Of a stretch of DNA of 64,000 nucleotides, positions 9,505 to 60,126 are shown in pieces. Source of the stretch: Zea mays. Lineage: Eukaryota > Streptophyta > Magnoliopsida > Poales > Poaceae. A program made the translations under genes and the position numbers. Under the pieces are notes generated by a model, which was given only the letters and a program-made list of their open reading frames with translations, ran no database searches and had not been told where the DNA came from. Within the stretch, counting starts at the first letter, position 1. Each line of letters begins with the position of its first letter. The stretch is from NCBI RefSeq assembly GCF_902167145.1, contig NC_050099.1, forward strand, positions 17,250,434 to 17,314,433, read 5' to 3'.

Positions 9505-9511
9505 GGCAAAT

Positions 9512-26000: not shown

Positions 26001-29000
26001 CTCGTGGGTCCATCCGGATTTGGTGAAACCCAGCTCGAAGATCCAAGGTTGAGAACCAAGCTGCTCCAAAGAGTTCATCCATAATGGGTACTGGAAATTT
26101 AGCCTTAGTTGTGAGTGCGTTCAGATGGCGATAGTCCACACAAAAACGATAGGAATTGTCCTTCTTGACCAAAATAACAGAAGAGGAAAAGGGGCTTTTG
26201 CTGTGTTGAATAAGGCCTGAGCTGAGCATGTCACCGATCTGCTTCTCAATTTCTGTTTTAAGAGCAGGAGCATAACGGTATGGTCTCATTTGCATCGGCC
26301 TAGCCCCAGGTATCAAAGGAATCCGGTGATCACAATCCCTGACAGGAGGAAGACCTTGCGGCACCTCAAACACTGATGAATAGCGATCCAACAAGGACTG
26401 TAATTCTGGTGGAAGCGATTGGATGATATGTTGGTCAGTGTCTGGAAGCTGTGAAAGGCTGCACAATTGAACCAGAGCACCCTGTCCATCTGAAGCTTGT
26501 ACGCCATATAACTTGACTAGAGAAGAACCACAGTTAGAGACAACCATTTATCTGCCCAATGGACCCACATCAGGCTATGTTCTGATAACCAATCCATGCC
26601 AATGATCATGTCAAATGGTTGAAGGTCGAGAATCTTTAGGGTGGAAGTAAATCGGTGGCCTTGAATGGACCATTCGGCATTGGTCAGTTCAGCACAACAA
26701 GACAGCTTAGACCCATTAGCAACTTGGACCAATAATGGCTGACAGCTGCAACATTGGTACATGAGGTACTATGGATGAACTGATAAATGAAATGGAACTG
26801 CTTGAATCCAATAAGATAAGGACATATAGCTCCCCGATCTCTCCCACGAACCTCATAGACTTGGACTGGCTATCATCCCTGGACAAGGACTGACATAAAT
26901 GCAGGCAATTAAGAGTTTCTGACTGATCAGCTTTAGACATGTTGTCTTCATGCGGTAGCTGGAATTGTTGCCACAGTTCTTCCACCATGTGTAACTGCAC
27001 TGTGTCCGGACATTGGTGACCTCGAGAATATGCCAAGCCACATTTGTAACAAAGACCCTTAGCCTTACTGTAAGCATATACTGAAGACAAACAGTCGGGT
27101 TGAGCAGTTGCTGGAGTCTTAACGTCATGGTGAGTGGGTGGGATCCCTGTTGGTGGAGGCAATGGCATGGGAACCCTCTGAGACGTCTTGGAATATGATC
27201 TGGAGTCGAATTTGCTAAATTCCCTTGGCTTGGTTGTCGCCCCAATTTCATCCTACAATTGGGCAAGAACATAGGCAGTATCCATATCTTTGGGACGTTG
27301 AATCATAACAATGGACTTAATATCATGGCGTAGACCATCTAAGAAACACATAATATAATATAATGGGTCGGACATTGGTTGGTAACTGTTTAGCTGGTCT
27401 ACCAATTGAGCGAATTGGTCTATATACTCAGCCACCGATCCAAGCTGTTTGATGTGAAACAGCTGTCTGATCAAGATGGCATGCTGGTCTTTCCCGAAAC
27501 GCTCTCGGAGCAAAAACCCAAACTTTGACCATGATATGTGGGGTAGCTTATGTTCAACAGATTGAAGCCATCGAGATGCGGCGCCAGAAAAATGCATCGT
27601 AGCTACCTTAATCCAAACTCTAGGATGGACCTCATACATAGCAAAATAATTCTCACAGTGGGTTTGCCAAAGCTTGGGGTTATCACCATCGAAAGGAGGA
27701 AAAGACACACGGGGCAGCTGACCAACTCTGAACTAGGATGAAAACCATGAGATCGTTGACCACTGCTAACGGAATTTGGGTTGATGTGCTGAAATGGGGG
27801 GTGAAACAAGAATTCGGGCGTACTGTTGTGTGGGAGGTGGGTTTGGGCGTAGACACGCCCAAAGCCAGACTCCCGACGTTGGTGTTCGACGCGGTGCCCC
27901 ATTGGGCCATCGGCCTTGCCAGTGGCAGGTGGTGGACGTCCCCCGACCGATTGGTAGGACCCCAGCAAGCCGGCCGCGTGGAGGAACGAAGTTGTCGGGG
28001 ACGGAGGAGGTGGAGCGCGTTGCTTGGTGAGGTCCTGTCGCACCAGATTCATGGTGTACTTGAGGTCGTCCACCGATGCTTCCATGTATGGGTGCCAGGA
28101 ATCGAACGCCGCAGTGGCGGACTCCAACGCCCCACCCGGGATGCGGCCGCCGCCTCCACCGCATCGAGGCACTCGACGGTCGCGGCAACGTGGGAATCGA
28201 TCTCCGACCGCAGTGTAGCAGCAAAGGAATTGGACACAGTTGTCTCCAATTGCTGGATCGACGAGGTGTTCCGAGTGACGGACGCATCCAGCGACCGCCA
28301 GCGCGCATCCTGCGCAGCTAGGCGCTCGCTGATTTCGCGGAGGATCTTGGACTGCTTGTCGATGGCGAGCTTGAGGTTCGGCTCCATGGCCCCCAAGTGC
28401 TTGGCGCGGCGCGTGAAGTAGGATTTCTCCAGCCCAGAGACCGATGTCTCCGATACCAATTTGTTAACAACCCAGATCGCCGAGCCGCCGCAGCAGGTTC
28501 TAGGAACCAGAGAAGGGGAGTGGAGGACTGGAGGGAGAAGAAGAACAGTAGTATTAGGGTTCACAATTCTCGACCCCTTTCTCTCTCTCAGCGGCCCACG
28601 ATCCTGGAATTCGGCCTTCGTGCGCGGCGGCACTTTCCTCCTCCGGCTTCAGTCTTGGTTCCATGTTCTTCTGAATGTGCCTCGTCAGCTATGCTGACAC
28701 CACCCCAACCAGTCCTCTCGCGCTCGCCCGCCAGAGCACAGAGGCTAGTTGGGGGATTTTTTGTGATTGCCTTGGTGTTTGCCGAAAATCACACTTAGGT
28801 TGTCTAAGCTTTGTTTCGATCATTTCGTGTTTTGTAAATTATATGGATCGGAAAACAAATCTTCTTGGGGTAAACTAGAAATCATCTTCAGTCTTTGCAT
28901 ACACCACTTATTTGTCAAATTACCGATAGAATATAATTGTTATATGTGATGTATTAGTATAAATTTGCTATACATATGTCTAGACCGAGTTTTGTAGACA

Positions 29001-35922: not shown

Positions 35923-37317
35923 AGAGTACTTATTTATTTCATAAGGTGTTGCTCACCTGTGTATCGGCGTACCCTTGCCATGTGTGTTTGCACTTTATAC
36001 AATTTCGAGTAGTCTGAACATTTCCTTACTATTTTGAGAACATGAGCATGGTTTTTGAACATTGTTTATTGTAATAATATTGATATTCATAATAACGTTG
36101 TTGTCATACATGACTCAACGATTGGCAACATATGCAAATTATTTGTAGCAGATGCATTACAGAGGACAATTACCATGACTTCTTCACTGACGCCCAAGAT
36201 ACATGACTTCCATTGCTACAACTACTTCTACTTAGTTCATAAATGAAATATAACAACATTGTTGAACCACATAATACGGATGAAGACCTTCAACCCATCG
36301 ACCCTCTACGTGCCCAAAGGTGTTCTATCAGGTTGTGCTGCAAAGACAAGTATGTGGTCTGAGATGTCATGTCCTGGTCGGGGTCGTTGGGTAATTCAGA
36401 ACGGATATGATTGTTTAGCCACTCGTTGCGGACCTCAGGAATATTGTTACAAACTTCGGGGGGACCTGTGGGGCCAACGAAATCCAGATTTGTTGCACCA
36501 TCACCTTCGTCCTCGACAATCATGTTGTGCATAATAATACAAGCAGTCATCATCTCTGCGAGGTGATTACGATCCCAACCATAAGCAGGCCCACGTAGAA
36601 CTGCCCACCTCGCCTGCAAAACCCCAAATGCTCGCTCTATGTCCTTTCGACAACTCTCCTACTTGGTTGTGAAGTGAACCTTTTTTTCCTCAAAAGCGTG
36701 ACGAATTGCTTTTACAAAGGTAGGCCAATTGGGATATATACCATCGGCTAAGTAGTATCCAAAATTGTATGTGGTACCGTTAATAGTGAAGTGCACTGGT
36801 GGCATCGTCCCATTACGTAACGGATCAAACACTGGTGATCGATGAAGGACGTTGAGATCATTGTTAGTACCAGGCATTCCAAAGAAGGCATGCCAAATCC
36901 ACAGGTCATACCCTGCGACTGCCTCTAGTATCATTGTTGGCCTCGAATTGCGCCCACAAAACTGTCCGCGCCATGCAGTAGGACAGTTGCGCCATTCCCA
37001 ATGCATACAGTCGATGGAGCCTAGCATACCCGGAAACCCCCTGTCCGTGTTAACACTAAGTATGCGAGCAATGTCGTCGTGGTTAGGGATACAGAGGTAT
37101 CGTTCGCTAAAGGAAGATATGATTGCGCGACAGAAACGGATAAGGCAGTCCCTAGCCGTAGTCTGTCCAATCTGTATGTACTCATCGACCGCATCGCTTG
37201 GTAACCCGTACGCAAGGATACGCAAAGCAGCACAAACTTTTTGCAATGGACCAAGACCTGCTAAACCAGTTGCATCACATCTTACTGTGAAGTAATCGTC
37301 TTCTCGTTGAACGGCAC

Positions 37318-37965
37318 TGTTGGGGACCTTCGGCGTCCGAAGGTCCTCAAAAACATGATTTAATAGTGTTTCTGGAGTATAATGTGCAAACAGGTATCTT
37401 CGGACTCGAATCGGTATCACAGAGGGAGAAGCTCAAAGCATACGAAGGTTGATACAGCACCGAAGCTGTGAGCAGAAAAGCTTCGGCATGGTGGCAGGAA
37501 AGGAAACCGACTTAAAGATGAAAAGGCTATTCGGACCTCGATGGATTACTATAGAGTTATTGTCAGATGTAAAGGGCATAAATGTAATTTTGTAAGGGCT
37601 GTGTCCCGTGTCTATAAATAGGTGAACAGTATCCCCGTATTGTTCACGCTGACTTGGCATTCGCTTTTTGCGTCACGCTTGTACAATCCTTTCCTTCCGA
37701 TTGAAGGTACACTTGTTGTTCAATAATATTTTTGTTTATGTTAAATAATAATAAATGATTGTTCATGTTTTCCTTTACATTCTTCATATTTCATCCTTCG
37801 TCATTATTTGATTAATTTATGAAGGTATGTCCTTCATAACCTTCGTCCGCAAGGCACTATGTCCTAAGGGAAATAGTGCTTCGGAGGACGAAGGGCATTA
37901 ACGATTAACATTTTTTATGTTGCCTTGTTCTTAAACTCTTAGTACTTGAGAACAAGTCCCCAACA
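37318..37965 (+). repeat. 5' LTR of the Tat-like element
   Basis: Runs TGTTGGGGACCTTCGG to AAGTCCCCAACA. TATAAATAGGTGAACAG near 37613 is its likely promoter. It is rich in CTTCGG and CCGAAG words. Confidence 0.93.
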
Positions 37966-37984
37966 TTGGCGCCCACCTCCGGTG
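37966..37984 (+). other. Primer binding site of the Tat-like element
   Basis: TTGGCGCCCACCTCCGGTG directly follows the LTR end CAACA. The TGGCGCC core is usual in Tat and Athila elements. Confidence 0.75.
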
Positions 37985-38038
37985 AACTCACTTCCATTTC
38001 TTGAGCTTTGAATACCTTCGGCGAGCGTCACCTTCGTC

Positions 38039-39556
38039 ATGCCGCCGAAGAAGGCTTCAACAACAGGAGCTGGCACACTGCAGTCGCTGGATCCCAATCA
38101 GGATGTTATTTCTCTTAGAGAAGCCCGAAGCCAGAAAAGGAAGGCTGTCAGTCCAACACCTCCGGATGATGATCTTGATCAGGAAATTCAAAATTTGGAG
38201 ATCCTTCAGCAACAAGTTCAGCGCAGGAAGGAAAAGATGGCTCGTCTAGCTGATCTTCAGAGACAGATAGATGAAGCTTCGGAAGAGGTCCGTCATTTCG
38301 TTCAAGACGATCAAACCCGAAGGCCTCCACGCAGAGAGCTTCATCAGGAAGATTTCCGCAATGAGGACGACTGGTATGAAGATCTCCATCATGGAAACTT
38401 TGCTTTTGATGATGCCTCTCCTCTTTCAACAGAATTGCAGGCTACACCTTGGCCACAGACTTACAAGCCACCCCAGCTTCCCATATATGACGGTCACTCA
38501 GACCCGAAGCAATTCCTAATGAGCTACGAGGCAACAATATCTTCATACGGTGGCAATACGGCAGTCATGGCAAAATCCTTCGTCATGGCCGTCAGAAGTG
38601 TTGCTCAGACCTGGTACTCTTCTCTTCGGCCAGGGACAATCACTTCTTGGCAGAAACTGAAGGATATGCTCATAACTAGTTTCCAAGGGTTTCAAACAAA
38701 GCCGGTCACTGCTCAGGCCCTTTTCCAATGCACCCAGGACCACGAAGAATACCTTCAGGCATATGTCCGAAGGTTTCTGCGTTTAAGGGCACAGGCGCCG
38801 ACAGTGCCCAATGAGATTGTCATTGAGGCCATGATCAAGGGGCTTCGGCCAGGGCCATCAGCACAGTATTTTGCCAGGAAGCCACCACAAACGCTGGAGA
38901 AGCTGCTCCAGAAGATGGATGAATATATTCGAGCTGACAATGATTTTCGCCAAAGAAGGGAGGAGGCCTTCAGATTTTCTGAGATGACCAGGGGCTTCGG
39001 AGGAAGATTCTATCCGAGGCATGTCAGATCAATTCATAATTCCAATCAAAATGATGATAAGGGGAGCCAGCAGCAAAAGCCACAGTACTCCTCACAGGCT
39101 TCGGGGCAACAGCAAAGCTCCTTCCGACCACCAGCTCCAAGAGGCAGAGGCGCCAGGGGCTTCGGCGGAAGATTCGGGGATCAACCCAGAAGAATATTTT
39201 GCTTATTCTGTGGTGAAAACAAAGGTCATACTACCAGGATGTGCCATGTTACCATTCAGAAGCAAAAAGAGATAGCCGAAGCTGCCGCGCAACAGGCTCA
39301 ACCGAAGCAGGTCATGCATACAGCTTCGTATCATTCGCCCTACATCCCAGAATATGTGGGCAACCATCCTGCAGTCTCTGCTGCTTCGGCAAGTCAGCCT
39401 TCAGCTTCCTGGCAACAGCCTCCGCCTCCACCTCCGTTGCAACAAGGCCAGCAGCCAGAAGGGAGCCAATATGCTCCACATCAAAGGGACTTCAGAGAAC
39501 AGTCCGAAGCTCGCACGGTCAACAGCACCGTGCCAGAATCAAAACACATCTATTGA
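38039..39556 (+). CDS. gag: Gypsy gag protein, 505 residues, intact
   Basis: Starts MPPKKASTTGAGTLQSLDPN 74 bp after the 5' LTR. A helical, glutamate-rich coiled-coil stretch spans about residues 40-90. The retrotransposon gag domain spans about 150-310 (PKQFLMSYEATISSYGG, then AQTWYSSLRPGTI and AYVRRFLRLRAQAP). An RG- and Q-rich region follows, then a knuckle-like CLFCGENKGHTTRMC near residue 393, whose spacing CX2CX5HX4C is one residue longer than usual. It ends in a proline- and glutamine-rich tail. It would form particles that package element RNA. The frame is unbroken and is not followed by pol. Confidence 0.9.
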   Translation: MPPKKASTTGAGTLQSLDPNQDVISLREARSQKRKAVSPTPPDDDLDQEIQNLEILQQQVQRRKEKMARLADLQRQIDEASEEVRHFVQDDQTRRPPRRELHQEDFRNEDDWYEDLHHGNFAFDDASPLSTELQATPWPQTYKPPQLPIYDGHSDPKQFLMSYEATISSYGGNTAVMAKSFVMAVRSVAQTWYSSLRPGTITSWQKLKDMLITSFQGFQTKPVTAQALFQCTQDHEEYLQAYVRRFLRLRAQAPTVPNEIVIEAMIKGLRPGPSAQYFARKPPQTLEKLLQKMDEYIRADNDFRQRREEAFRFSEMTRGFGGRFYPRHVRSIHNSNQNDDKGSQQQKPQYSSQASGQQQSSFRPPAPRGRGARGFGGRFGDQPRRIFCLFCGENKGHTTRMCHVTIQKQKEIAEAAAQQAQPKQVMHTASYHSPYIPEYVGNHPAVSAASASQPSASWQQPPPPPPLQQGQQPEGSQYAPHQRDFREQSEARTVNSTVPESKHIY

Positions 39557-39699
39557 CAAATATCCTACCTTAATAGCAATCTTTTTCATTCAGTTTTATT
39601 TTCTGTAATAAAGGACATTGTTTAGGTTTCATGTAATTAGTTTCGTTGATTCTTACAAGAAAAATATGTTTTCTTCACAGGTTTGTGATAATAAAAAGG

Positions 39700-40060
39700 A
39701 CCTTCGGACTATCGAAAATCCTTCGAAGCAACAAAAAGTCGTTCTAAGGAACGCAGAGTAAGTCTGACGAAGTCACAAAAAGTCGTTCCGAAGGGAGCGC
39801 AGTGTAAGTTTTCTGCTCCAAAGTCGTTCCAAAAGGAATGCAGAGCATACAGCGAAAAGTCAACGCTGATACCGCCTAAGTAAAAGGCGAAGAAGCTCCA
39901 AAGACGTTCCTAAGGGAATGCAGAGCTTATACCGCCTAAGTGAAAGGCGAAGAAGTTCCAAAGACGTTCCTAAGGGGATGCAGAACTTACAGCGAAAAAT
40001 AAACGCTGATTCCGCTGAAGTAAAAGGCGAAGAAGCTCCTAAGGGAGGCTTATAATGAAA
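39700..40060 (+). repeat. Minisatellite-like tandem array downstream of gag
   Basis: Diverged units of about 60 bp, built from blocks such as CCAAAGACGTTCCTAAGGG, ATGCAGAGCTTA and CCGCCTAAGTGAAAGGCG. The blocks recur at about 39820, 39900, 39960 and 40030. It fills part of the space where pol would be expected. Confidence 0.8.
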
Positions 40061-40546
40061 AAGTCAGTATTGATACAAAAGATTGTGCCCCATTGCAGGA
40101 ATGTGCGCATCTTCGGCACAAAATATCATTTTGCATAACATAACATCATCACATCATTTTGCATAGCATAATCATCATACATCATGTTGCATGTGGCACA
40201 AGAAGGGGGCATGTTATCGATCTTCGGAAAATGCTTTGAAAAAGGGCAAATCATGCCAAGATACAGGGAGAAACAATATTGATCTTCGAGGTATAGCTTC
40301 GGAGATTATTTTTATGAAGCTTGGATATTTCTTATCAGAACACTATGGATATTGTCGTGATAAATGATAAATTCTTCTTCACGAAGCATGAAAAGAAGGG
40401 AAGGTGTTTTTTCGTCGAAGACTCAAAAATGGTACGTGTTTAAAGTTTCATGCATCGTAAAGAATTGAATCATAAAACAAGTATATTACATACAGGATTA
40501 CAGAATATTACACAAATCATATATCAAATGTTTTTTGCAATAGCAC
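40061..40546 (+). other. Non-coding spacer of the Tat-like element
   Basis: AT-rich DNA with CATCATTTTGCATA-type words repeated at 40130-40190 and no open frame of note. It separates the repeat array from the 3' end of the antisense gene. Confidence 0.6.
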
Positions 40547-43500
40547 TTAGTCTTCCCTAAGTACTATCTCTGCAGCTTCGTTCAGCAGTCGATCGACAAC
40601 CTGATCCATGATAGCTTCGGCCATCTTTTTAATTTCGTCGTCAGGCTGAGGGCCCGAAGATGCTTTAGTAGGATCTGAGTGAGGACGGGATATTATTACA
40701 TCACTATTACAGATCGCGAACGAACTATAAAATTAAAAGTTATAACGCAATGAAAACTATTCGTTAGTACCTATTTGCCCTTCAGGCTCTGCGTTTTTCT
40801 CAGCAGCCTCGGCTACTTTTCTAGCCTCATGAATCCCTTTCTCGCTTTTCTGAATGATTTCTTGGGCCATTTCTCTACCACCGTTGTCCCAGATGTCGGT
40901 GAAAAATTTTCCCCCAACCGCGCTAGCTTCGGCTGAAGGATCTTTTATATCTTCAGTGGACAAGGTGGCTTCGGACCGCGATAAAATCTTTACATGTTCA
41001 CATCCTTTCCCCTCCAAAATGGTGGCAATCCCTCTGGCACCAGAAAAAGCGCAGATGTCTCCGCGGCTATTTAAAATTTCTTCAAAGGCCTCCGCCTCAT
41101 GATTGATCCATTCCAGGGGACCTTCGGGGTTACCTCTTATAAAGTTTTCTTCTTGCGAAAATGCGCCAACGCTGGCGAAGCTAGTTTTTATTTTCTTGAC
41201 ACACTCCATAGATTTGTCGAAGTATTTCTTCTTGGCTGACCGAAGCTCTTTAACAGTTTCTTCTAAATGATTTGCCCATTGGTCGCTGAGTTCTCGCCTT
41301 GTTTCTTCAAGTATGCATTCCTCTTTAGCCCTGGCTAATTGTTTACGAAGGTTTTCAATTTCACGCTTCTGAACTTCGGCCTGACCTTTGAAAATAGCTT
41401 CGTCTTCTTTTATTTTATTTATTAAGGAATGCAATATTTTGTCTTTTTCGAGACCTTCGTTCCTCAGTTCAATTACTTCGGAACGAAGGTTGCTCAGGGC
41501 TATAGTACATCCTTCGTCCTCAGCATCTTTCTGTGCTCTGAGGGCATTGCTGAGTATCAGGCCCTGCAGACAGGAATATGTCTGTGTCAATAGTTTTAAA
41601 CAAACGAAAAATTTTGAATTCAACAAAAATATAAGAATTCCATTTGTCGCACCTTTAAACTGTTGTAAGCTAGGCTGTCAGCCAGATCGTTCTTTGACAG
41701 CACCGAAAGTCCGTCTTCTAAAGTTGGGAATCCGAAGCTTCTGCTCATCTCCCGACAGACAGAAATTTCCTTGCTGTCGGGGAGGCAGTACAAGAAATCT
41801 TCTTCTCCACTGCCATTAAATATCAACGCTCCCTTTGGATATTTCAACCTTTGGGCATAGTGTTGGGCCTCTTGTTCTTCTTTTTCTGATAATTTTTTCC
41901 CTGAAGCATGACGAAAAATATAATCACGAATTTTGGGGGATGCTTCGGGGGTAACAACACCAGTTTCTTCAGCAAAAGTTGGCTTTGTTATTTTTTCTGC
42001 CTCACTTTCCAAGGTTTTTGCCTTGGTGGGCTCTGAGGGCCCAGCTTCGGCTTCAATTTCTTGCTCTGGAGCCGCAGAACCAGAAATTTCAGCTGTTGTT
42101 TCAAAAGTAATAGCAGCCTTCTTCGGAGGTGTGCTCGAAGATATGATCGTTTCCAGTACATCTAGCACATTAGCCATTCTTTTTCTCTTCGGAGTTGCAG
42201 CTGGCACTTTTTCATTTTTTGATGTCCCAATAATTGCTGAAGGACTCAAAACTTCTGATGTTTTGGAGTCCTCGGTTGCTTCCTTTACCTCTTCCATTTT
42301 TTCTGTGAATGGCGCTTCGGCCTTCTCTTTCGTTTCCGGTAACAAAATTTTTGATTGCTCCAATTTTGTCTTCGTTGGTACTTCGGCTGTTTCTGCGACT
42401 TCTGGCAGCAAAGTTGACTCGGCTGGTTTTTCAGCTTCGGTGGCCGAAGAAGTCTCTCCGGTAAACTCAGGCACCGAAGCTGGTTCAATATAACGCGGCC
42501 GATGCGTAAGAACCTTTATCTTCTTCCTTTTTGGTTCTGGCTCGCTAGGAGCAGCTGCAGTTTCTTCTTTTGCAGAGATTGTATTTTTTCTCTTCTGCCT
42601 TCGAATGGGGTAGCAATAGTCAGGGTAGACAAACCCGATGGCATCAAATACCCGATTCAGCCTTTTCTTTTTTCGGCCTCCGAAGGCTGCTGACATTGCA
42701 GTATCTTCGGCCTTCGAGTAGGTCCCAAGCAGCTCATCACTTAAATTGTCAATGCTTTTCAACCACTCATCATCTGGCTCAATAAATTTATCTCCAAATT
42801 TAAAAGTGTACTTAAACCTGACAAGTCCACCTTCGTCGGCCTCTTTAATGGTTTCTTGTGGCATTTCCCATTTCTCCGCAAGCGGCCACACCCTGAAGGC
42901 AATATGCTCTTGTACTAAGTCCCTTGTTCCCATAAAAGAGCAGACAACGCCGAAGGCTCTTTGGCACTCTTCGGCGGCTTCATTCATTTCAACCTTCGGC
43001 CTCCGAAGGCCGAAGCTTTGCCAAATAGGACGCATGATTATACCTTTGATGTCTTCTCGTGTTTTCAGATCATTTTTTACATAAAACCACTCTGTCATCC
43101 AGCCGCTGGGCCATTTTTTCCGAAAAGTTGGCACGGGGCAGCTTGACCCAGACCGAGAAACAAATTTGTAGCAGCCAAAGTTATTGTGATACTGTTCCTT
43201 ACCCCAAGGTATTGTCTCGTATGATAATTCGTGAATATTGCAGAAGCTTCTTGCATCAGGCTTCAGACCCTGGCTTCGCACGGCCCACACGAAGATATTC
43301 AGCCTTATGATTGCCTCGGGGGTAAGTTGGTGAAGATAGACTTCAAAGATCTTCAGCACTTCCACGACGAAGCTGCTCAAGGGCAATCGCAGCCCAGCCT
43401 TCAAAAAGCTTCGGAATACCACGACTTCATTTTCTTCGGGGTCTGGGCAAGTCTTTTCCCCTTCGTCCGCCCTCACAATGGACAGATCCCGGAAATACCT

Positions 43501-43782
43501 TCCTCTCATATTAACAAGATGATTCTCTTTGATAGTTGATTTACCATAAACTGAATGGCTTGGTCGCCAGGGGCGATCTTCGGAGTCTTCGCCACCGCTG
43601 TCCACATCAAAACTGTCACTGTCACCAGTATCTTCAGACAGCCCTTCCAGAATTTCCCTGGTGATCTTTTCTGTGTTGGTCTTCGACATTGCTATAAGAA
43701 ACCCTAAGTTCTTCTCTTCATCAAGACTCAGCTTCATCTCAGCGGCAGCCTTCTTAGCAGCTTCAGACATCTTCGGAAACAC
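40547..43782 (-). CDS. Spliced antisense gene with Transposase_28-like domain
   Basis: Three minus-strand exons, 43782-41653, 41563-40771 and 40674-40547, join at GT-AG borders in frame to give about 1016 residues. Residues 1-60 are charged; an acidic patch follows (EDTGDSDSFDVDSGGEDSED). About 120-330 resembles Pfam Transposase_28 (putative gypsy-type transposon): VVVFRSFLKAGLRLPLSSFV, LHQLTPEAIIRLNIFVWAVR, WPSGWMTEWFYVKND. A basic patch (KKKRLNRVFDAIGFVYPDY) precedes a long low-complexity E/K/T/P region, and exons 2-3 form coiled coils. A homologue lies at 48561-50019. A TATA box sits about 130 bp upstream. The role is unknown; Grande gene23 is a known antisense analogue. No stop breaks it. 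Confidence 0.8.
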
Positions 43783-43912
43783 TAAAAAACTGTTTTCAAA
43801 GCCGAAGCTTCAAAGCTAAAAGCTTAGCAGATCACAGTGCACAAGAGCTAAAAAATCAGTGAGCAGGAGTGGTTGGCCAGAAAGCGTGCAAAATAAGTTT
43901 GCGGTATGGCCG

Positions 43913-43920
43913 TATTTATA
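43913..43920 (-). promoter_or_regulatory. TATA box of the antisense gene
   Basis: The minus strand reads GCGTATAAATACGG about 130 bp upstream of the antisense ATG and about 160 bp inside the 3' LTR. Homologous elements have TATATAA (50222-50228) and TATAAAAG (47533-47540) in the equivalent place. Confidence 0.7.
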
Positions 43921-44077
43921 CGCTTGATGCGTTGAAAGATGAAAGACCCCACTTGTCATTGAATGTTGCTATTCTAGCAAAGGGAAGGTGTTTTTTTCGG
44001 ACCTTCGGCATAAAGCCTTCGTTCATATCGCAATCTGAATTTATTATTTCAAACAAATTAATATTGCGAGGGGCTAC

Positions 44078-44725
44078 TGTTGGGGACCTTCGGCGTCCGA
44101 AGGTCCTCAAAAACATGATTTAATAGTGTTTCTGGAGTATAATGTGCAAACAGGTATCTTCGGACTCGAATCGGTATCACAGAGGGAGAAGCTCAAAGCA
44201 TACGAAGGTTGATACAGCACCGAAGCTGTGAGCAGAAAAGCTTCGGCATGGTGGCAGGAAAGGAAACCGACTTAAAGATGAAAAGGCTATTCGGACCTCG
44301 ATGGATTACTATAGAGTTATTGTCAGATGTAAAGGGCATAAATGTAATTTTGTAAGGGCTGTGTCCCGTGTCTATAAATAGGTGAACAGTATCCCCGTAC
44401 TGTTCACGCTGACTTGGCATTCGCTTTTTGCGTCACGCTTGTACAATCCTTTCCTTCCGATTGAAGGTACACTTGTTGTTCAATAATATTTTTGTTTATG
44501 TTAAATAATAATAAATGATTGTTCATGTTTTCCTTTACATTCTTCATATTTCATCCTTCGTCATTATTTGATTAATTTATGAAGGTATGTCCTTCATAAC
44601 CTTCGTCCGCAAGGCACTATGTCCTAAGGGAAATAGTGCTTCGGAGGACGAAGGGCATTAACGATTAACATTTTTTATGTTGCCTTGTTCTTAAACTCTT
44701 AGTACTTGAGAACAAGTCCCCAACA
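44078..44725 (+). repeat. 3' LTR of the Tat-like element
   Basis: 648 bp, preceded by the polypurine tract GCGAGGGGCTAC. It differs from the 5' LTR at one position noticed (C at about 44400 for T at about 37640), showing a young insertion. Confidence 0.93.
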
Positions 44726-45616
44726 GGCACGAAGGATACGTAGAAACAAAGGACGTTGCATCCGAAACCTAAAATCGATAACAACGCAAAAAAATAAGAA
44801 TATGAAGCTCCAAATCAAAGTCAAAACATTACTTAGGAAACGTACCTTCGACGAAATACATGGGATGGATACACTGGATTTGGTCCGAAGTAGTGGTGCT
44901 TGATGAGATTTTCTCCAGCAGCGTGGTCCCTATGGATAACACGGCGAGGCAATGAGGAGCGCCTACGACGCGTGCTCGTGTCTCCGAGTACAAGGTGGTC
45001 AACATGTTGCCAAAGCAACAAGTTATCGATCTCATCGTCCGAATCATCGGATGACGAAGATAACACTAGGCTTCGCAATGAGTCCATGACGAGCTCAACT
45101 AAGACTACGTACTACGTACTTCGGATGGAATGGCGGATGATACAGGAGAGACGACTGTGTAGTTGAGTGGAGCATGGCCGCAGGGGTAGCATATTTATAC
45201 ATGGCTTGGGTGTGTGAAGGAAGCCAGAGGGTCGTGGCTTGCCGTAGAAGCCAGTCGTGTGGTGGAAGCCACTCGTGTCGTGTACGAGAAGAATGCGAAT
45301 TTCTATTTTTTTTAAACAAAATTCGACCGTATTTATACTAACGTATTAATACTAATTATGAAGTTTGTTAATTAATTGTGGTTCATGTTGCGCCCGTAAA
45401 CTGTGGAAATAAGAAATAAAAATAAAATTAATATTGGATGGTAGTTGAGTTAGTTGATGATGAAAGTATATAATATTGTTGTTGTGGGGTATAGAGGATT
45501 GATATAGGGGGAACCGCTGTAGAGCGTGGAGATATAGGGGGAGAGAGAACGCTGACGTGGCACGTGAGTGAGATATAGAGGGAGAAATTTAGGGGGAACA
45601 GTTGAAGACAGTCTCA

Positions 45617-47353: not shown

Positions 47354-47655
47354 CAGTAGCCCCTTGCGAAATGAGTTCGTTTCTTCATAACGAGCTTAAA
47401 TCGCAAAATAGAAAAATTGGGAGGTCTTGTGCCGAAGGTCCAAAAAACACCTTCTCGAAGCTCGTTATGAATACCCTGACTGGTAGGGCCCAGATCTCAG
47501 TGGGTACAACGGGTAAGTTAATAATCTACGGGTATAAAAGGAAGCGATACCCGACGGTGTTAGTACGACATTTGCTATCTGCTCTACCTTTGAAGCTTAC
47601 TTTGATCGCTTTTCCACCTCCAAACCAACCTTAGCTAGTTGAAAGGAAGACTTAT
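47354..47655 (-). mobile_element. Internal 3' remnant of the minus-strand Gypsy element
   Basis: Polypurine tract and adjoining sequence. On the plus strand GGGTATAAAAGG (47531-47542) is the promoter of what would be an antisense gene in this element. The remnant is cut off at 47655 by the next LTR, before any coding sequence. Confidence 0.65.
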
Positions 47656-48560
47656 TGAAAGTTCCCTATGCCCGGGAATATGATCTGGATGTCGCCTAGA
47701 GGGAGGGTGAATAGGCGATTAATAATTATCACTGTAAAAACTGGAAATTCTTACTCTACTCGAAGGATGGATTGCAGTGGAATGAAAGACCCTTCGAGTA
47801 GGTTGCAGCGGAATAGAAGTTCCTGTATTAAAATACCCTACACTTAGAAGATAGCTTGAACCACATATAAATATTGAAGTGCAAGTATAAACAGCAAATA
47901 AGACAGAGAAACAACGCACATCACAGATCAGAGCACACAGACACATGGATTTATCCCGAGGTTCGGCCAAGCCTGAAATGCTTGCATAGTCCTCGTTGGA
48001 GTTAGCCACACCTTGGCTTGGAGTCTATTTCAACTCCTTCCTCTGTTTGCTCAGATCTGTCAGTGCGACAGATAGAGCCTTCCACTATGTTGATATCAGT
48101 TACAATGATGTCGTGGCTGCTTACAATCTTCTCGACAACTCTTCGGCAGAGTAACAATGCGCTCAAGATTTTGCTCTAGCTCTCAGCAGCACTTCCCCTC
48201 TCTCTAAAGGCTTATAAGTTTGCCTCTACACAAACTAGAGAGATACATAAGAGAGGGAGAGAAAGAATTGATCCAAATGATGTATGGACTTGTTGGTTGC
48301 ACTTGTGTGCTTGTTGGAGGCGCCTAGGGGTCCCTTTTATAGTCCCAAAGGGCCTAGGAGCCATTGGAGCTTCACTTGGAAGCTCCCAGCCCTCCCTGGT
48401 TGCGGGTGCACCGGACTGTCCAGTGGCGCACCGGACAGTGACAGTAACAGATCTGATTGACAGTTTCCTTCTCTGGAAGAGCTAGCCGTTGGTGCACCGG
48501 ACAGGTTACTATTCACTGTCCTGTGCACCGGACATGTTACTATTCACTATCCTGTGCACC
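47656..48560 (-). repeat. Truncated Sirevirus-type LTR
   Basis: Aligns with the first 905 bp or so of the LTR at 51333-53110, from TGAAAGTTCCCTATGCCCGG to TGTGCACC. It then passes abruptly into Gypsy sequence at 48561. CTTAT at 47651-47655 is a candidate duplication without a partner. The CACCGGAC/GTCC repeats end at the break. Confidence 0.8.
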
Positions 48561-50019
48561 TAACTTAGCAGCTTGATAGGTAAGGATTCAGTCATTACCT
48601 TTAAAATTTCTTCTACTTCGGCAGCAGAAGGTGTCGAAGGAGCTCCCTCTTCTATCTCAGCCATCTTCGGCTCTGGAGTTGCACTTTTCCTCTTTTTCGA
48701 GGTCGCCACCTTCGGCTTAGGGCTGGATTTTTTCTTTTTCAAAGTTTTTCATCTTCTTTTACCATCCTAGCAGCCTATCTGCTCATAACGCTGACAACCC
48801 TTTTTCTCTTTGGCCCTTCAGCACCCTTGCTTAGTCGCTCATAGTCAGGGTATTCAAAATTTAAGGCATCCATTACCCGATTCAACCTTCGTTTTGGTCG
48901 GGTGCTAAAGGCCGCAGTGATTAGTTGATCTTCTTTTTTAGTATAATTGCCCAAAATTTCATTGCACATAGCCTCAATCATTTCTAGCCACTCTTGGCAA
49001 GGCTCTTTGAATTGTTTCTCAAATTTGAAGCGATATGGCAGCCGAACAAGTTCATTCTTTTTCTTTGTTCCCTTCAGCTTCGACATGCTCCATTCACTCA
49101 ACGTCGGAAATACCCCGTTGGCTAGGTATTCTTGCACTAGATCTGTAGTGCTGATATGTCCAGCCACAACCTTGAATTCTGCTACAGCTTGTTGGCAGGG
49201 TGACCTCGACGTCATGCGGCACAGGGGACTAGTCAGTCCGAAGCTTAAACTCAGTGGACTCAGGACCATCGTCTTTAACTTCTCCCTCTTTTTCTCATCG
49301 GCCTTGACATAGAACCATTCACTTTTCCAGCCGGTTGGCCACTTGGTGCGATAGCTAAATACCGGGGCCTTCGTATCCTTGCGATACACGAAGTTGTAAC
49401 AACCAAATTTCTCATGTAACCCGTCTTCTCTAGCCTTCATTTGGTAATGTAGCTCTTGCGCTCGGCAGAAAGCTTCAGCATTTGGGTCCATTCCTTGGCT
49501 TCGAAGGGCCCAGATGAAGACGCTGAGCCTAATGATAGCGTTAGGGGTCAGCTGATGAATATAGATTTCATAATTATCCAAAACTTCCCCAATCATCTCG
49601 TTCAAAAGAAACCGCAATCCCGCTTTGAAAAAGCTCTTGAAAACCACCACTTCATCTTTTTTGGGCTTTGGAGTGGTTTCTTCTCCGGCAAAGCGAATAA
49701 GCTTCTTCTCAGTCTCCCCGAAGTAACCCAGCTTTATCATCATGGGCACATCGGCCTCTGAGATAGTAGATTTTCCAAAGTCCAAGTGGCTTGGTTTTGC
49801 TGGGATAAGAGTGTTATAGTCTTTCTCTTCTTCATCAACATCTTCTTCTTCTTCGATGTCAGCCTGTTCAGCTTCGGCAGTAGGTGCACCTTCGTCAGTA
49901 GCTCCCTCCGTCATAACCAATCCCGATTGCCTCATAACTTCGGAGATCGGGGTTGTCTCGACGGCTTCGACTCTTCTCCTTCACGAGTCACCCTTGCAGT
50001 TGAGCGTACTCTGGCCATC
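48561..50019 (-). pseudogene. Antisense Transposase_28-like gene, truncated and frameshifted
   Basis: A homologue of the gene at 40547-43782 in the same relation to its LTR. The frame 49935-48775 gives VVVFKSFFKAGLRFLLNEM, IHQLTPNAIIRLSVFIWALR, WPTGWKSEWFYVKADEK and RPKRRLNRVMDALNFEYPDY, matching the other copy block by block. A likely start at ATG 50019 (MARVRSTARVTREGEESK) needs one frameshift near 49950. A stop at 48775-48777 is followed by a basic stretch (KKKKSSPKPKVATSKKRKSA), and the gene is cut at 48561. TATATAA lies at 50222-50228 upstream. Confidence 0.8.
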
Positions 50020-50506
50020 TGATGGTTAATCCCTTTCTAGTTTTTTATGAAGCTAGTAACTTTTACAGCTTTGACGAAGCTCTTTCTTTTGCCGAAGCTA
50101 AATCAAAATGATCTTTTGCTCGAGAATGCAGTGAAAAATCTTCGGCTATGGTTAAATTTTTCAACAGCACAACAGTGCAATGGCAATGAATGTTGTGGTA
50201 ACTTCACACCTACCTGTCTGTTTATATAGTGCTGCAGGTGGGAAGGTGAATCGCCAAGTTATCCGCACCCGCTGAACAGTAACCCGCACCCGCTGCATGG
50301 TGGACCTCTCGGCGCTTGTGAGGCGAATCACCAGACCGTGCATACCCGCCGCATAGTGGGCCACCTCGGGCTCGGAATAATTTAATCGTTTCTCAGCAAC
50401 GAGCTTAGGGGAGGTGTTTTTCGGACCTTCGGCATTCCGAAGCCTTGGAGATTTTTCATGGATCAAGCTCGTTACAAAAAACGATCTAGCATCGCAAAGG
50501 GGCTAC

Positions 50507-51131
50507 TGTTGGGGGTCTGCTTCGTCGCCGAAGGTCTTATAAGAAGAAACACCTTCAAAAGATCAGCACAGAAGCAAATATAGCGCGAAGATACACGCCG
50601 AAGCTACCATCCAGGTAGCTTCGGCATAGCGACGTGCCTTGAGACGAAGGGCTGCACCGACTTAAAGAGGAAAAGACCATTCGACCCATGGTAATTTGTG
50701 TCATGATTGTAACTAGTTGTAGAGGATATAAATATAATTTTGACCAGGCTGCGTCCCGTGCCTATAAATAGGTGAACAGTACCCCATACTATTCATGCTG
50801 ATTTGTATTCGCTCGTGCGTCATGCTTGTACTTTCGCCTTCTATCAAGCCGAAGGTACAAATGTAATTCAATATTGTTCTTATTTGATTATATAACAAGG
50901 GCATATAAATGATGTTATATAATCATTCATGTTATTCCTCATATTTCATATGCTTCTTCTTTCATCAATGTAAACTGTGATGATGAAGGTATGTCCTTCA
51001 TGACCTTCGTCCGAAGATCGTTATATCCTAAGGGAAATGATGCTTCGAAGGACGAAGGGCATTAACCATTTAACTTCTTTCTGTGTTGCCTTGTTCTTAA
51101 TTCCGAAGCATTTGAGAACAAGTCTCCAAAA
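50507..51131 (+). repeat. 3' LTR of the truncated Tat-like element
   Basis: Runs TGTTGGGGGTCTGC to CAAGTCTCCAAAA (the final CA is lost). TATAAATAGGTGAACAG near 50763 and the region around TGTCCTTCATGACCTTCGTCC match the LTRs at 37318 and 44078, so this is a related family or subfamily. Confidence 0.8.
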
Positions 51132-51330: not shown

Positions 51331-51332
51331 AT

Positions 51333-53110
51333 TGAAAGTTCCCTATGCCCGGGAACAGGATCTGGATGTCGCCTAGAGGGGGGTGAATAGGCGATTAATA
51401 ATTATCACTGTAAAAACTGGGAATTCTTACTCTACTCGAAGGCTGGATCGCAGTGGAATGAAAGACCCTGCGAGTAGGTTGCAGCGGAATAGAAGTTCCT
51501 ATCTTAAAATACCCTGCACTTCGAAGACAGCTTGAACCACATATAAATATTGAAGTGCAAGTATAAACAACAAATAAGACAGAGAAACAGCACACAACAC
51601 AGAGCAAAGCACACAAACACAGGGATTTATCCCGAGGTTCGGCCAAGCCTGAAGCCTAGTCCTCGTTGGAGTTAGCCAGACCTTGGCTTGGAGTCTATTT
51701 CAACTCCTTCCTCCGTTTGCTCAGATCTGTCAGTGCGACAGATAGAGCATTCCACTACGTTGATATCAGTTACAGCGATGCCGTGGCTGCTTACAATCTT
51801 CTCGACAGCACTCCGACAGAGTAACAATGCGCTCAAGATTTTGCTCTAGCTCTGAGCAGCACTTCCCCTCTCTCTAAAGGCTTATAACTTTGCCTCTACA
51901 CAAACTAGAGAGATACACAAGAGAGGGAGATAAAGAATTGATCCAAATGATGTATGGACTTGTTGGCTGCACTTGTGTGCTTGTTGGAGGCGCCTAGGGG
52001 TCCCTTTTATAGTCCCAAAGGGCCTAGGAGCCGTTGGAGCTTCATTTGGAAGCTCCCAGCCTTCCCTGGTTGCGGGTGCACCGGACTATTCGGTGGCGCA
52101 CCAGACAGTGAACAGTAACGGATCTGATTGACAGTTTCCTTCTCTGGAAGAGCTAGCCGTTGGTGCACCGGACATGTTACTATTCACTGTCCTGTGCATC
52201 GGACATGTTACTATTCACTGTCCTGTGCACCGGACAGTTACTATTCACTGTCTTGTGGACCAGCCAACAGCACACTAAGTGCTTTTTCCTCCATTCTTTC
52301 TCCGTTTGACTTCAACTTTTGGGAGGATTTTCCTGAGACGTAAACAAACACATTTAGAGTATAATCCAATTGATTTAGTCCTAGAAACTTACCTCTTTCT
52401 TGTTCTTCTCCTAGCTTTTCTGTTTCTCCTCAAGCAGAGATCAGAATGGCACTTTCTCTACAGAAAGAGTTAGAGAGCAAACCAAAGCACCAAACTTGTA
52501 GTAATAGGTGTATGCAAAATGGTTGAACACTCAAACCTTACATACTTAACCTTTTTCATCGTTTTACCCAATTTGGCATGTTTGAGGTCGATGTTGGACT
52601 CTAGACCATTAAGTCAACTTGACTTGATCTAGATTGACATATCTGAGCTCCAACTCCCTTGTTCACTTCTCGAGCTTGATCTTGAGCCTTATGACTTACA
52701 CCACATAACTGTAGATGTTACCTCATTGGTTGTAAGTCATGTCCTTATGTAGTGATCCTTGATGCACCATAACTCTTCTTAACTCGATCAACCTTGACTT
52801 TGAAAGTCTTCTTCTTCACCCCTGGCTTTGGGTTCTTGGTCTCTTTGACCTTCTCCCGTGCACTCGGTACCTCGAAGCTCTTCTTGCTTCCATCCTTGGC
52901 TTGATCGGTTGTCTCTAAGTTACGCACACCGAGTCTCACTTAAGCAGTGTTCATTATCTATAGATAATTCAGTCTTTGGACCATCACACTTGTTCACTTG
53001 TGTTGAACCCTGTTAGCCTTACATTAAGCACCTGTTCAACACTTAGCACACTTGTTAGTTCTTTAATTGGGTTGTCATCTAAACACCAAAAACCCACAAG
53101 AGAGCTTTCA
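51333..53110 (-). repeat. Sirevirus LTR of 1778 bp shared by two internal regions
   Basis: On the minus strand it runs TGAAAGCTCTCTTGTGGG to GGGAACTTTCA. It has a primer site and gag on its left and a polypurine tract (AAAAAGGGGGAGAT, 53111-53124) on its right. One LTR therefore serves as 5' end for one copy and 3' end for another. It holds CACCGGACATGTTACTATTC-type repeats near 52080-52260. Confidence 0.82.
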
Positions 53111-54470: not shown

Positions 54471-54520
54471 ATTGGAATCGGAGCCGTTCTCTTCAAGAAA
54501 GGGACTAACCGCCCGAAGAG
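54471..54520 (+). other. Primer binding site and leader
   Basis: AT plus TGGAATCGGAGCCG follows the LTR, a one-base variant of the TGGTATCGGAGCC used by the sister element. The gag ATG is at 54521. Confidence 0.8.
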
Positions 54521-56920
54521 ATGGATCCTAAGGGGAAGGGAATCGTGATCAACGACAAGGAGAAGGAATCCTTCGTCAACGAGCCAAAGGATGACAAGCC
54601 TACCGACTCGGGCTCGGGCCACAGACGCAAAGATGGGAAGAAGAAGAAGACAAGACGCATCAAGGAGATCATTTACTACGAAGATAGCGATGAGTCCACT
54701 TCTTCCCAAAAGGACAACAACGACGACGACTACGAGAAAAAGAAAACGGTCAATTCAAACTTTTCTTTTGATTACTCTCGTATTCCTCAAAGTACAAATG
54801 CTCATTTATTATCTATTCCACTTGGTAAACCTCCTCATTTTGATGGAGAGGACTACAGATTTTGGAGTCACAAAATGCGTAGTCACTTGTTCTCTCTCCA
54901 TCCTAGTATATGGGAGATTGTAGAGAGTGGAATGCACTTTGATAGTATGAATAGTCCCATGTTCATTAATGAGCAAATTCATAAGAATGCACAAGCTACT
55001 ACTGTTCTTCTAGCTTCATTGTGCAGGGATGAATATCACAAAGTGAGCGGCTTGGATAACGCCAAGCAAATCTGGGACACCCTCAAGATCTCTCATGAGG
55101 GGAATGATGTCACAATGCTCACCAAGATGGAGTTGGTGGAAGGCGAACTCGGGAGATTCGCTATGATAAGGGGAGAAGAACCAACCCAAACGTACAACCG
55201 GCTCAAGACCCTTGTCAACAAGATAAGAAGCTATGGAAGCACGCGATGGACGGACCATGACGTCGTCCGCCTAATGCTAAGGTCTTTTACTGTCCTTGAT
55301 CCTCATCTTGTAAACAATATTCGTGAGAATCCTAGGTACACCAAGATGACGCCCGAGGAGATACTTGGAAAGTTCGTAAGCGGGCGAATGATGATCAAGG
55401 AAGCAAGATACGTGGACGACGCATTGAATGGTCCAATCAATGAGCCTCAACCTCTTGCTCTCAAGGCAACAACAAGCAAGGAGACGCTACCTAGCAAGGT
55501 GGCACAAATTGAGGCGGCCGGACTTAATGATGAAGAGATGGCTCTCATCATCAAGAGATTCAAGACGGCGCTAAAAGGTCGCAAGGGGCAGCCAAACAAG
55601 ACCAAGACAAAGGGGAAGCGCTCATGCTTCAAATGTGGTAAGCTTGGTCATTTTATTGCTAACTGTCCCGACAATGATAGTGATCAGGATCAAGGGAACA
55701 AGAGGGAGAAGAAGAAGAACTATAAGAAGGCAAAGGGCGAGGCGCATCTAGGCAAGGAGTGGGATTCGGATTGCTCTTCTTCCGACTCCGACAATGAAGG
55801 ACTCGCCGCCACCGCCTTCAACAAGTCATCCCTCTTCCCAAACGAACGTCACACATGCCTTATGGCAAGGGAGAAGAAGGTATGTACTCGAAACTCTGCT
55901 TATGCTTCTTCAAGTGAGGACGAATCTAGTGATGAGGATGAAATAGATTATTCATGTTTATTTAAGGGCCTAGATAGAACCAAGGTAGATAAAATTAATG
56001 AATTGATTGATGCCTTGAATGATAAGAATAGGCTTTTAGAAAAGCAAGAGGATTTGTTGTATGAAGAACATGACAAATTTGTAGAAGCACAAAAATCTCA
56101 TGCTTTAGAAGTTAAAAGAAATGAAATGCTTTCTTGTGAATTATCTTCGTGCCATGAGACAATTTCTAACTTAAGGAGCATTAATGATGATTTGAATGCT
56201 AAGTTAGAAATAGCTAGTAACTCAACATCTTGTGTAGAAATTGTTGCAACTTGTAATAGGTGTAAAGATTTTGACATTGATGCTTGTAGTGAACATCTAG
56301 TTTCAATTTCCAAACTTAATGATGAATTGGCTAGTCTTAATGCTCAACTTAAAACTAGCAAAAGTGAATTTGATAAACTAAAATTTGCTAGGGATGCCTA
56401 CACGGTTGGTAGACACCCCTCAATTAAGGATGGGCTTGGCTTCAAGAGGGAAGCCAAGAACTTAACAAACCATAAGGCTCCCATCTCTGTCAAGGAGAAA
56501 GGGAAGGCTCCTATGGCAAGTAGTACTAAAAAGAACCATGCTTTTATGTACAATGATAGAAGACAGTCTCATAGGAGTTGTAATGTTTATAATGCTTTTG
56601 ATGCACATGCCTATGATTCTTATGCTATGTTTGCTTCTAGTTCTTCTTATATGCATGATAGAGATATGTCTAGGAGATATGTTCATCATGTGCCTAGAAA
56701 GAATATTGTTCATGTTTCTAGGAAAGTTATGAATAGTCCTTCTACAATATATCATACTTTAAATGCTTCCTTTGCTATTTGTAGAAAGGATAGGAAGATA
56801 GTTGCTAGGAAATTAGGGGCAAAATGCAAAGGTGATAAAACTTGCATTTGGGTCCCTAAGACAATTGTGACTAACCTTGTAGGACCCAACAAGAGTTGGG
56901 TACCTAAGTCCCAAGCCTAA
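54521..56920 (+). CDS. gag: Sirevirus gag, 799 residues, intact
   Basis: Starts MDPKGKGIVINDKEKESFVN. The N-terminus is charged and low in complexity (to about residue 75). Capsid domain, UBN2 type, about 100-300 (FDGEDYRFWSHKMRSHLFSL, then AKQIWDTLKISHEGND). Zinc knuckle CFKCGKLGHFIANC is near residue 370. An acidic S/D/E stretch and a coiled coil (about 480-620) follow, and it ends SWVPKSQA with a stop at 56918-56920. It forms particles and binds RNA and is much longer than gag of most Copia elements, as usual in Sireviruses. The pol frame is +1 relative to gag. Confidence 0.93.
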   Translation: MDPKGKGIVINDKEKESFVNEPKDDKPTDSGSGHRRKDGKKKKTRRIKEIIYYEDSDESTSSQKDNNDDDYEKKKTVNSNFSFDYSRIPQSTNAHLLSIPLGKPPHFDGEDYRFWSHKMRSHLFSLHPSIWEIVESGMHFDSMNSPMFINEQIHKNAQATTVLLASLCRDEYHKVSGLDNAKQIWDTLKISHEGNDVTMLTKMELVEGELGRFAMIRGEEPTQTYNRLKTLVNKIRSYGSTRWTDHDVVRLMLRSFTVLDPHLVNNIRENPRYTKMTPEEILGKFVSGRMMIKEARYVDDALNGPINEPQPLALKATTSKETLPSKVAQIEAAGLNDEEMALIIKRFKTALKGRKGQPNKTKTKGKRSCFKCGKLGHFIANCPDNDSDQDQGNKREKKKNYKKAKGEAHLGKEWDSDCSSSDSDNEGLAATAFNKSSLFPNERHTCLMAREKKVCTRNSAYASSSEDESSDEDEIDYSCLFKGLDRTKVDKINELIDALNDKNRLLEKQEDLLYEEHDKFVEAQKSHALEVKRNEMLSCELSSCHETISNLRSINDDLNAKLEIASNSTSCVEIVATCNRCKDFDIDACSEHLVSISKLNDELASLNAQLKTSKSEFDKLKFARDAYTVGRHPSIKDGLGFKREAKNLTNHKAPISVKEKGKAPMASSTKKNHAFMYNDRRQSHRSCNVYNAFDAHAYDSYAMFASSSSYMHDRDMSRRYVHHVPRKNIVHVSRKVMNSPSTIYHTLNASFAICRKDRKIVARKLGAKCKGDKTCIWVPKTIVTNLVGPNKSWVPKSQA

Positions 56921-56927
56921 ATTTGCC

Positions 56928-59900: not shown

Positions 59901-60126
59901 AAGTGCTATCCGCATGGTGGAAAATCCTGTTGAACACAGCCGCACAAAGCACATAGACATCCGGCATCACTTTTTGAGAGACCACCAGCAAAAGGGAGAT
60001 ATCGAAGTGTTTCATGTTAGCACCGAGAACCAGCTAGCTGATATCTTTACCAAGCCACTAGATGAGAAGACCTTTTGCAGGTTGCGTAGTGAGCTAAATG
60101 TCTTAGATTCGCGGAACCTGGATTGA
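56928..60126 (+). pseudogene. pol: Sirevirus pol polyprotein with two frameshifts
   Basis: The protease segment SSWIIDSGCTNHMTG lies at about 56960. A 7-bp deletion near 57095-57105, compared with the sister element, shifts the frame. The main frame 57122-58858 carries the zinc region (HHRLAHVGMKN), integrase (DLFGP, SDNGSEF, YTPQQNGVVERKNR) and the start of reverse transcriptase ([18 protein letters not shown]). A missing T in ACTTTGCTCC near 58835 shifts it again. The frame 58846-60126 holds [28 protein letters not shown] and [13 protein letters not shown]. The two small deletions are the only lesions seen. Gag and pol are separated by a stop and a frame change, so pol expression needs recoding or splicing. 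Confidence 0.92.

Follow-up and report, generated by a model that had tools for sequence, protein, structure and literature searches.

In a 64,000-nucleotide (nt) stretch of Zea mays DNA (NC_050099.1, positions 17,250,434 to 17,314,433 of the forward strand; hereafter the window, with positions counted from its first letter), a complete long terminal repeat (LTR) retrotransposon at 37318-44725 carries a three-exon gene with a Transposase_28 domain on the strand opposite to its gag gene. To judge from the DNA, this antisense gene (43770-40547, minus strand) is very probably a real, spliced protein gene under selection. As a whole, the observations are on balance best explained by a selected, spliced antisense gene that gives rise to a nuclear accessory protein. 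The gene is laid out as follows.

43912-43920, minus strand: antisense TATA box, TATAAATAC, present in 30 of 30 compared loci, window copy included
41653-43770, minus strand: exon 1, 706 codons, ATG at 43770, Transposase_28 (PF04195) at residues 117-177
41564-41652, minus strand: intron 1, 89 nt, phase 0, GTGCGA...CTGCAG, GT-AG
40771-41563, minus strand: exon 2, a long helix, likely a coiled coil, followed by a conserved tail
40675-40770, minus strand: intron 2, 96 nt, phase 1, GTACTA...ACTCAG, GT-AG
40547-40674, minus strand: exon 3, with TAA at 40547-40549

A preliminary description of this DNA had claimed a gene with its own TATA box, GT-AG introns in consistent phase and no stop. All three features hold: TATAAATA starts at 43920, the ATG lies 150 bp further on, and the introns, in phases 0 and 1, join the exons into one open frame. 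Its three exons also stand, but its length of about 1016 codons does not, as the predicted spliced product has 1012 residues. Retention of intron 1 would bring a stop after 716 residues, and retention of intron 2 a stop after 974. A chance open reading frame (ORF) is ruled out, as the longest open stretch, 729 codons, far exceeds the maximum of 333 seen in 500 dinucleotide shuffles of the region (mean longest, 141). The same description had likened the N-terminal half to Transposase_28 and called the C-terminal half coiled coil. Both features are there on a smaller scale: the PF04195 match is confined to residues 117-177 (E 3e-11), and the predicted helix to exon-2 residues 2-131 (∼130 residues, confident at 21-110 with 10-residue means of 88-96), with a linker between the Transposase_28 part and the helix. 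When six exon-1-type stretches (exon 1 of the window gene and a fragment of that exon, a second copy in the window and three homologs) were scanned against Pfam with E up to 10, PF04195 was found in all six and alone exceeded its cut-off; a plant mobile domain appeared in none of them. Sequence profiles of exon 2 against the PDB gave no match at E ≤ 1e-1.

Near copies of the gene keep this architecture. A closest-copy search of the same genome gave 11,397 first-look candidates, of which 40, the window copy included, were scored, and all 40 were 98-100% identical across the probe. Thirty of these were compared, namely the window copy (L001) and the 29 nearest others, a set that is biased to young copies by its choice for nearness to the window. 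All 30 loci kept the TATA box, the ATG, the TAA and the GT and AG ends of the two introns, and the spliced frame was intact in 26 (25/29 without the window copy). Per site, the loci differed from the window copy by 0.0057 (exon 1), 0.0084 (exon 2), 0.035 (intron 1) and 0.0029 (intron 2).

Greater depth came from a second family, located in the same genome using the homolog P0007. Between the window copy and L044 of this family, the ratio of nonsynonymous to synonymous substitution rates (dN/dS) was 0.097 in exon 1 (678 codons; dS 1.32, dN 0.128), 0.042 in exon 2 (264 codons) and 0.056 in gag. As a control, reading this DNA in its other frames gave 1.4-2.0 in four of them and 0.18 in the mirror frame (rc1). 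Against L041 and L042, the window copy gave 0.10 and 0.05; L043 was left out of the comparison because its exon-1 end was unfit to anchor, and L046 was used for repeats only. Identity by codon position was 0.86, 0.88 and 0.58. In the comparison with the window's other, degraded copy, synonymous sites had reached saturation. In L041, L042 and L044, intron 1 measures 78 nt and is 50-53% identical (50% in L044) with GT-AG retained, intron 2 is at the same position with GT-AG, and exon 3 (∼41 residues) is conserved past intron 2. The TATA box of L044 lies 152 bp ahead of its ATG, compared with 150 bp in the window copy. GT-AG introns are thus conserved in phase across relatives, intron 1 also in two more distant elements, L057 and L058. 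The preliminary description had proposed a search of other copies for conserved introns and a dN/dS estimate for the antisense frame; the introns are conserved in all 30 near loci as well as in L041, L042 and L044, and the two exon ratios are not neutral. Its own argument, that antisense introns cannot persist by chance and must therefore be selected, reached a conclusion that stands by reasoning that does not: antisense introns persist in the genomic RNA without selection because the sense transcript never loses them, and selection is shown by the low dN/dS and the conserved splice sites.

Selection on amino acids also bears on whether the RNA, instead of a protein, is the functional product. 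The antisense gene sits within the sense transcription unit, and its transcript could pair with the sense RNA and damp the element through the double-stranded and small RNAs so formed, a role raised as possible in PMC7264820 and described for yeast Ty1 in PMC12786077 (statements on published work refer here to the available portions of each source). A function of the RNA alone would leave codon structure unkept, whereas dN/dS is 0.04-0.10 and the first two codon positions are conserved over the third; we therefore regard this explanation as unlikely, although RNA and protein could both matter. The earlier idea of an antisense transcript acting against gag RNA is similarly improbable, as it offers no explanation for the protein-level constraint.

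Protein homologs supplied a separate view of the exon borders. At E ≤ 1e-5, exon 1 had 1,793 homologs (from the 7,995 scored candidates with most words in common) and exon 2 had 3,742. Among the 120 exon-1 homologs listed out of 1,793, 83 reach the junction, and the next residue is V (GTN), as a phase-0 GT donor demands, in 82 and M in one; beyond it the readings diverge in length and sequence. Among 120 listed exon-2 homologs, Q, as CAG would give, precedes in 51 of the 57 that cover the first residue, and G follows in 112 of the 118 that cover the last full residue. Q and G at these borders are consistent with splice sites and are no proof of them. The protein collection's gene calls, which seem to ignore introns, list exons 1 and 2 as separate open frames, as would be expected if there were no splicing and exon 1 alone were a protein (716 residues with read-through) and exon 2 another. 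Against this, the read-through tails vary from 1 to 53 residues in the 83 homologs, and the called starts of exon 2 vary, many at an internal leucine codon and only some at M. The splice dinucleotides are moreover kept in 30 loci and in L041, L042 and L044 (those of intron 1 also in L057 and L058) while the sequence of intron 1 has turned over, and exon 3 is conserved after intron 2, which makes an unspliced pair of proteins very unlikely. Exact and partly degenerate patterns found no spliced-junction copy in the genome, a zero that is uncalibrated and would be expected were sense RNA the only RNA copied. No relatives were found in plasmids, viral contigs or prokaryote genomes, as expected of a plant element.

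The element that houses the gene has the following parts.

37318-44725: complete LTR element, 7,408 bp, with paired LTRs, 5-bp target duplication, primer-binding site and polypurine tract
37313-37317 and 44726-44730: target duplication GGCAC on both flanks
37318-37965, plus strand: 5' LTR, 648 bp, with a single mismatch to the 3' LTR
37966-37985, plus strand: primer-binding site (PBS) region, starting TTGGCGCC, read from sequence
38039-39556, plus strand: gag gene (open frame from 38012), Retrotrans_gag E 5.5e-19 (Pfam)
39724-40192, plus strand: short tandem arrays in the interval from gag to the antisense gene
44056-44077, plus strand: polypurine-tract region 5' of the 3' LTR, read from sequence
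44078-44725, plus strand: 3' LTR, 648 bp

Paired LTRs, target duplication, PBS and polypurine tract together mark 37318-44725 as an intact LTR retrotransposon. The earlier claim that it has gag and lacks pol was confirmed by the Retrotrans_gag match and by the sense strand: the interval from gag to the antisense gene holds no ORF of 120 codons or more, sense ORFs facing the antisense gene reach at most 189 codons, with no pol frame found among them, and no YxDD motif occurs in any sense frame of the element. Its assignment as Tat-like Gypsy is also supported, in the form of a Tat/Retand-type element with an antisense TRP28 ORF (PF04195) before the 3' LTR. With gag present, pol absent, a length within 7.1-7.5 kb and LTRs within 450-750 bp, it further matches Zeon, as defined by the sizes given for Cinful-zeon in PMC5311732 and by GAG coding in PMC8547701; we infer that the shorter Cinful-zeon size class is Zeon, consistent with PMC2412881. 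The element is a young, non-autonomous, gag-only LTR element of the Tat/Retand kind, Zeon-type by gene content and size. Across L001-L030, the LTR stretch (44078-44725) shows 0.088 differences per site although the antisense genes are 99% alike, owing either to LTR exchange between subfamilies or to an alignment effect. A PIF/Harbinger-like transposase (Plant_tran, Pfam) within 36290-37432, minus strand, adjoins the insertion point.

The second family shares this layout. L044 has gag and an antisense Transposase_28 gene, and all its sense ORFs other than gag are shorter than 175 codons; its LTRs are 71% identical to those of the window element, and the gag-only type is so, judged from an identity of just 71%, an old and diversified strategy. 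Copies of the P0007 type were considered as the pol-bearing partner and ruled out, as L044 has gag and sense ORFs in L041-L044 reach at most 514 codons. The window element and L044 are collinear from gag into the antisense gene, so that pol was probably lost before their split and the later constraint belongs to a gag-only history, a reading that would be weaker if the two had lost pol convergently.

Partners with pol were found through the LTR end. A 24-mer spanning the LTR end and PBS has 12,646 exact matches in the genome (reversed control, 0). Of the first ten plus-strand places on contig C1, five run into gag, four into a VDTGSAADII frame without gag, and one into neither. We take the VDTGSAADII frame to be a retroviral-type protease; an 80-residue piece of it had no match in Pfam. 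Two of the four gag-less elements were checked for pol domains and the antisense gene. L059 showed RVT_1, RNase H (RT_RNaseH) and RVT_3, and the ORF scanned in L060 showed RVT_3 and integrase and lacked RVT_1. The second RNase H reported for the Tat lineage (PMC6317226) is seen in L059 only if RVT_3 is equated with it. Both pol-bearing elements carry antisense Transposase_28 (L057, E 2e-10; L058, E 1e-8), with exon 1 46% (L057, residues 33-385) and 36% (L058, residues 57-706) identical to the window protein. In both, exon 1 terminates at the equivalent position (...NFK|GT), followed by GT-AG introns of 74 and 76 nt, and dN/dS between the two in exon 1 was 0.078 over 674 codons (dS 1.57). According to PMC8547701, Zeon encodes GAG and Cinful the polyprotein, and Table 1 of PMC11963269 has two Zea mays clusters with RH, INT and TRP28 present and GAG absent. 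The sampled split agrees with these reports, and the antisense gene is accordingly the one gene seen in both halves.

Presence in both partner types could mean only that the gene was inherited by each and is now an unused relic, and at least one stop does occur in the matched stretch of 51 of the 64 scored second-family copies, a stretch that includes a few intron codons, so that part of these stops may fall beyond exon 1. A relic is hardly probable given that pol was probably lost before the window element and L044 split, yet dN/dS since then is ∼0.1, and that 26 of 30 loci of the window's own subfamily are intact. The introns and TATA box are gene-like enough to suggest a host gene that a single copy had captured in antisense orientation. 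However, the frame is found, highly identical, at 40 scored places and stands in the same place in L041, L042, L044, L045 (a copy from the window element's own subfamily), L057 and L058, in at least three families, and the available text of PMC11963269 knows Transposase_28 relatives from mobile elements only; we consider capture extremely unlikely.

The preliminary description had treated an antisense gene as surprising in itself, which was not borne out, since Transposase_28 ORFs are a hallmark of the lineage (PMC11963269) and an antisense promoter has been published for Grande gene23 (PMC7264820). The TRP28 ORFs of Retand elements (Vicient 2025, PMC11963269) are, like the window gene, antisense, located past the sense genes and ahead of the 3' LTR and matched by PF04195, and antisense TRP28 occurs in 97% of Retand clusters, Zea mays 1 and 2 included. 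That study gives ORFs from ORF finder and its available text lacks the word "intron", whereas the window gene has three exons and conserved introns; its survey also starts from reverse transcriptase (RT), so that gag-only elements such as the one in the window lie outside its targets. Grande gene23 (Gomez-Orte 2013, via PMC7264820) is likewise an antisense accessory gene near the 3' LTR with its own promoter and a nuclear protein, but Grande has pol (its RT is a query in PMC11963269) and the window element does not. Zeon and Cinful form one family, Cinful-zeon or RLG00001 (PMC2774510, PMC8547701), with a gag-only/pol-only split and shared LTR ends as here. Zeon measures ∼7.3-7.5 kb with LTRs of ∼0.6-0.7 kb (PMC2412881, PMC3091746), within a 7.1-7.5 kb class in PMC5311732, which fits the window element; the available descriptions of Zeon and Cinful leave an antisense gene unmentioned, whereas the window element has one. 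Ogre is also an intron-bearing plant Ty3/gypsy retrotransposon, but its intron belongs to the sense transcript of gag-pol, from which splicing can remove it (PMC6317226), whereas the window introns are antisense and cannot be lost in this way. HTLV-1 HBZ, an accessory nuclear protein from an antisense gene (PMC11963269), and Caenorhabditis elegans Cer1, with an accessory nuclear protein from a spliced RNA (PMC12786077), are analogies only, with no sequence relation shown. The antisense Transposase_28 gene, the antisense promoter and the gag/pol split are therefore already in print. Introns in antisense Transposase_28 genes are unreported in the literature searched, although Sanz-Alferez 2003, Gomez-Orte 2013, Ohtsubo 1999 and Steinbauerova 2011 may report them; neither intron conservation across partner types nor the argument from retention in both halves was found in that literature, which omits some originals.

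These observations suggest a model in which RNA polymerase II would initiate at the internal TATA box beside the 3' LTR and the antisense transcript would be spliced to encode a 1012-residue nuclear accessory protein. Its Transposase_28 part may contact nucleic acid and its coiled coil may multimerise it; TRP28 is predicted to bind DNA (PMC11963269), and the Grande gene23 product, expressed from its own promoter, is nuclear (PMC7264820). The introns would be harmless to replication, as the sense genomic RNA would never lose them. The protein might assist or tune transcription of the element itself, export of its RNA or nuclear import. A nuclear accessory role is a serious possibility that we stop just short of calling probable. 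Gag and pol would be shared out to gag-only and pol-only partners, with the antisense gene kept by both types. As gag and pol are each missing from one partner type and the antisense gene from neither type examined, the gene may serve mainly its own copy or subfamily, a suggestion that we make tentatively. That the spliced antisense gene, as the sole gene common to both partner types, is a cis-restricted or self-specific nuclear factor is an equally speculative proposal. If it were true, each copy or subfamily would need its own antisense factor, whereas gag and pol could be borrowed, and antisense-strand introns would let a retroelement carry a host-like, intron-bearing gene through repeated reverse transcription.

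Several points weigh against a selected, spliced gene with such a role. Splicing, expression and the protein are here all read from DNA. The dN/dS estimates come from few pairs with high dS. Among the 30 near loci, three have a premature stop and one a frameshift, though this is expected of dead copies, and the divergence of intron 2 is not above that of the exons, so that intron 2 lends no support at this depth. In L057 and L058, the Cinful-type elements, exon 2 is just 27-28% identical to that of the window, and a second intron, likely in L057, is apparently in another phase. PF04195, the only domain passing its cut-off in exon 1, is one of unknown function; the weak extras in the six-stretch scan were Siah-Interact_N (0.21) and Golgin_A5 (2.5), and every Pfam match of exon 2 fell under its cut-off. 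The Transposase_28 part has a poorly predicted fold (mean pLDDT, the predicted local distance difference test score, 47) that gives no usable model; Foldseek against the PDB returned 12 matches, none at E ≤ 0.001, and sequence profiles against the PDB a single match at E 0.43. For action on the element's own copy in particular, retention in both halves is represented by two pol-bearing examples and a published table.

Among plant Ty3/gypsy elements, antisense accessory genes are widespread, and no function is known for them. An intron-bearing, selected gene present in both halves narrows the question to what an element must get from its own copy and not from its partner. The group is abundant, as the 12,646 LTR-end/PBS matches show, which makes tests of expression and DNA binding feasible.

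The window holds further elements. At 48571-51130 lies a second, degraded element like the pol-bearing (Cinful-like) type, with an antisense Transposase_28 frame at 48778-49980 (minus strand, E 2.8e-9) and its own TATATAAA box at 50228. Its DNA is 67-69% identical to L058 and L057 and its 3' LTR ∼73% identical to that of the window element; over 48571-51130, no match to the window element or L044 was found at E 1e-10. It is flanked by a direct repeat of ∼0.9 kb (47654-48560 and 51331-52231, pieces 93-97% identical), possibly LTRs or else a segment of some other element that was duplicated. The stretch 47328-47533 matches, at 73% identity over 147 bp and in minus orientation, the LTR/internal boundary of this second copy and is followed on the plus strand by TATAAAAG at 47533, in the position of the antisense promoter, marking a third related fragment. 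A Ty3/gypsy pol with an SH3_Tf2-1 domain lies at 23469-26547 (minus strand), and two Ty1/copia elements, at 6298-11032 (minus strand) and 54509-60126 (plus strand), show RVT_2, integrase and a zinc knuckle or copia-type gag.

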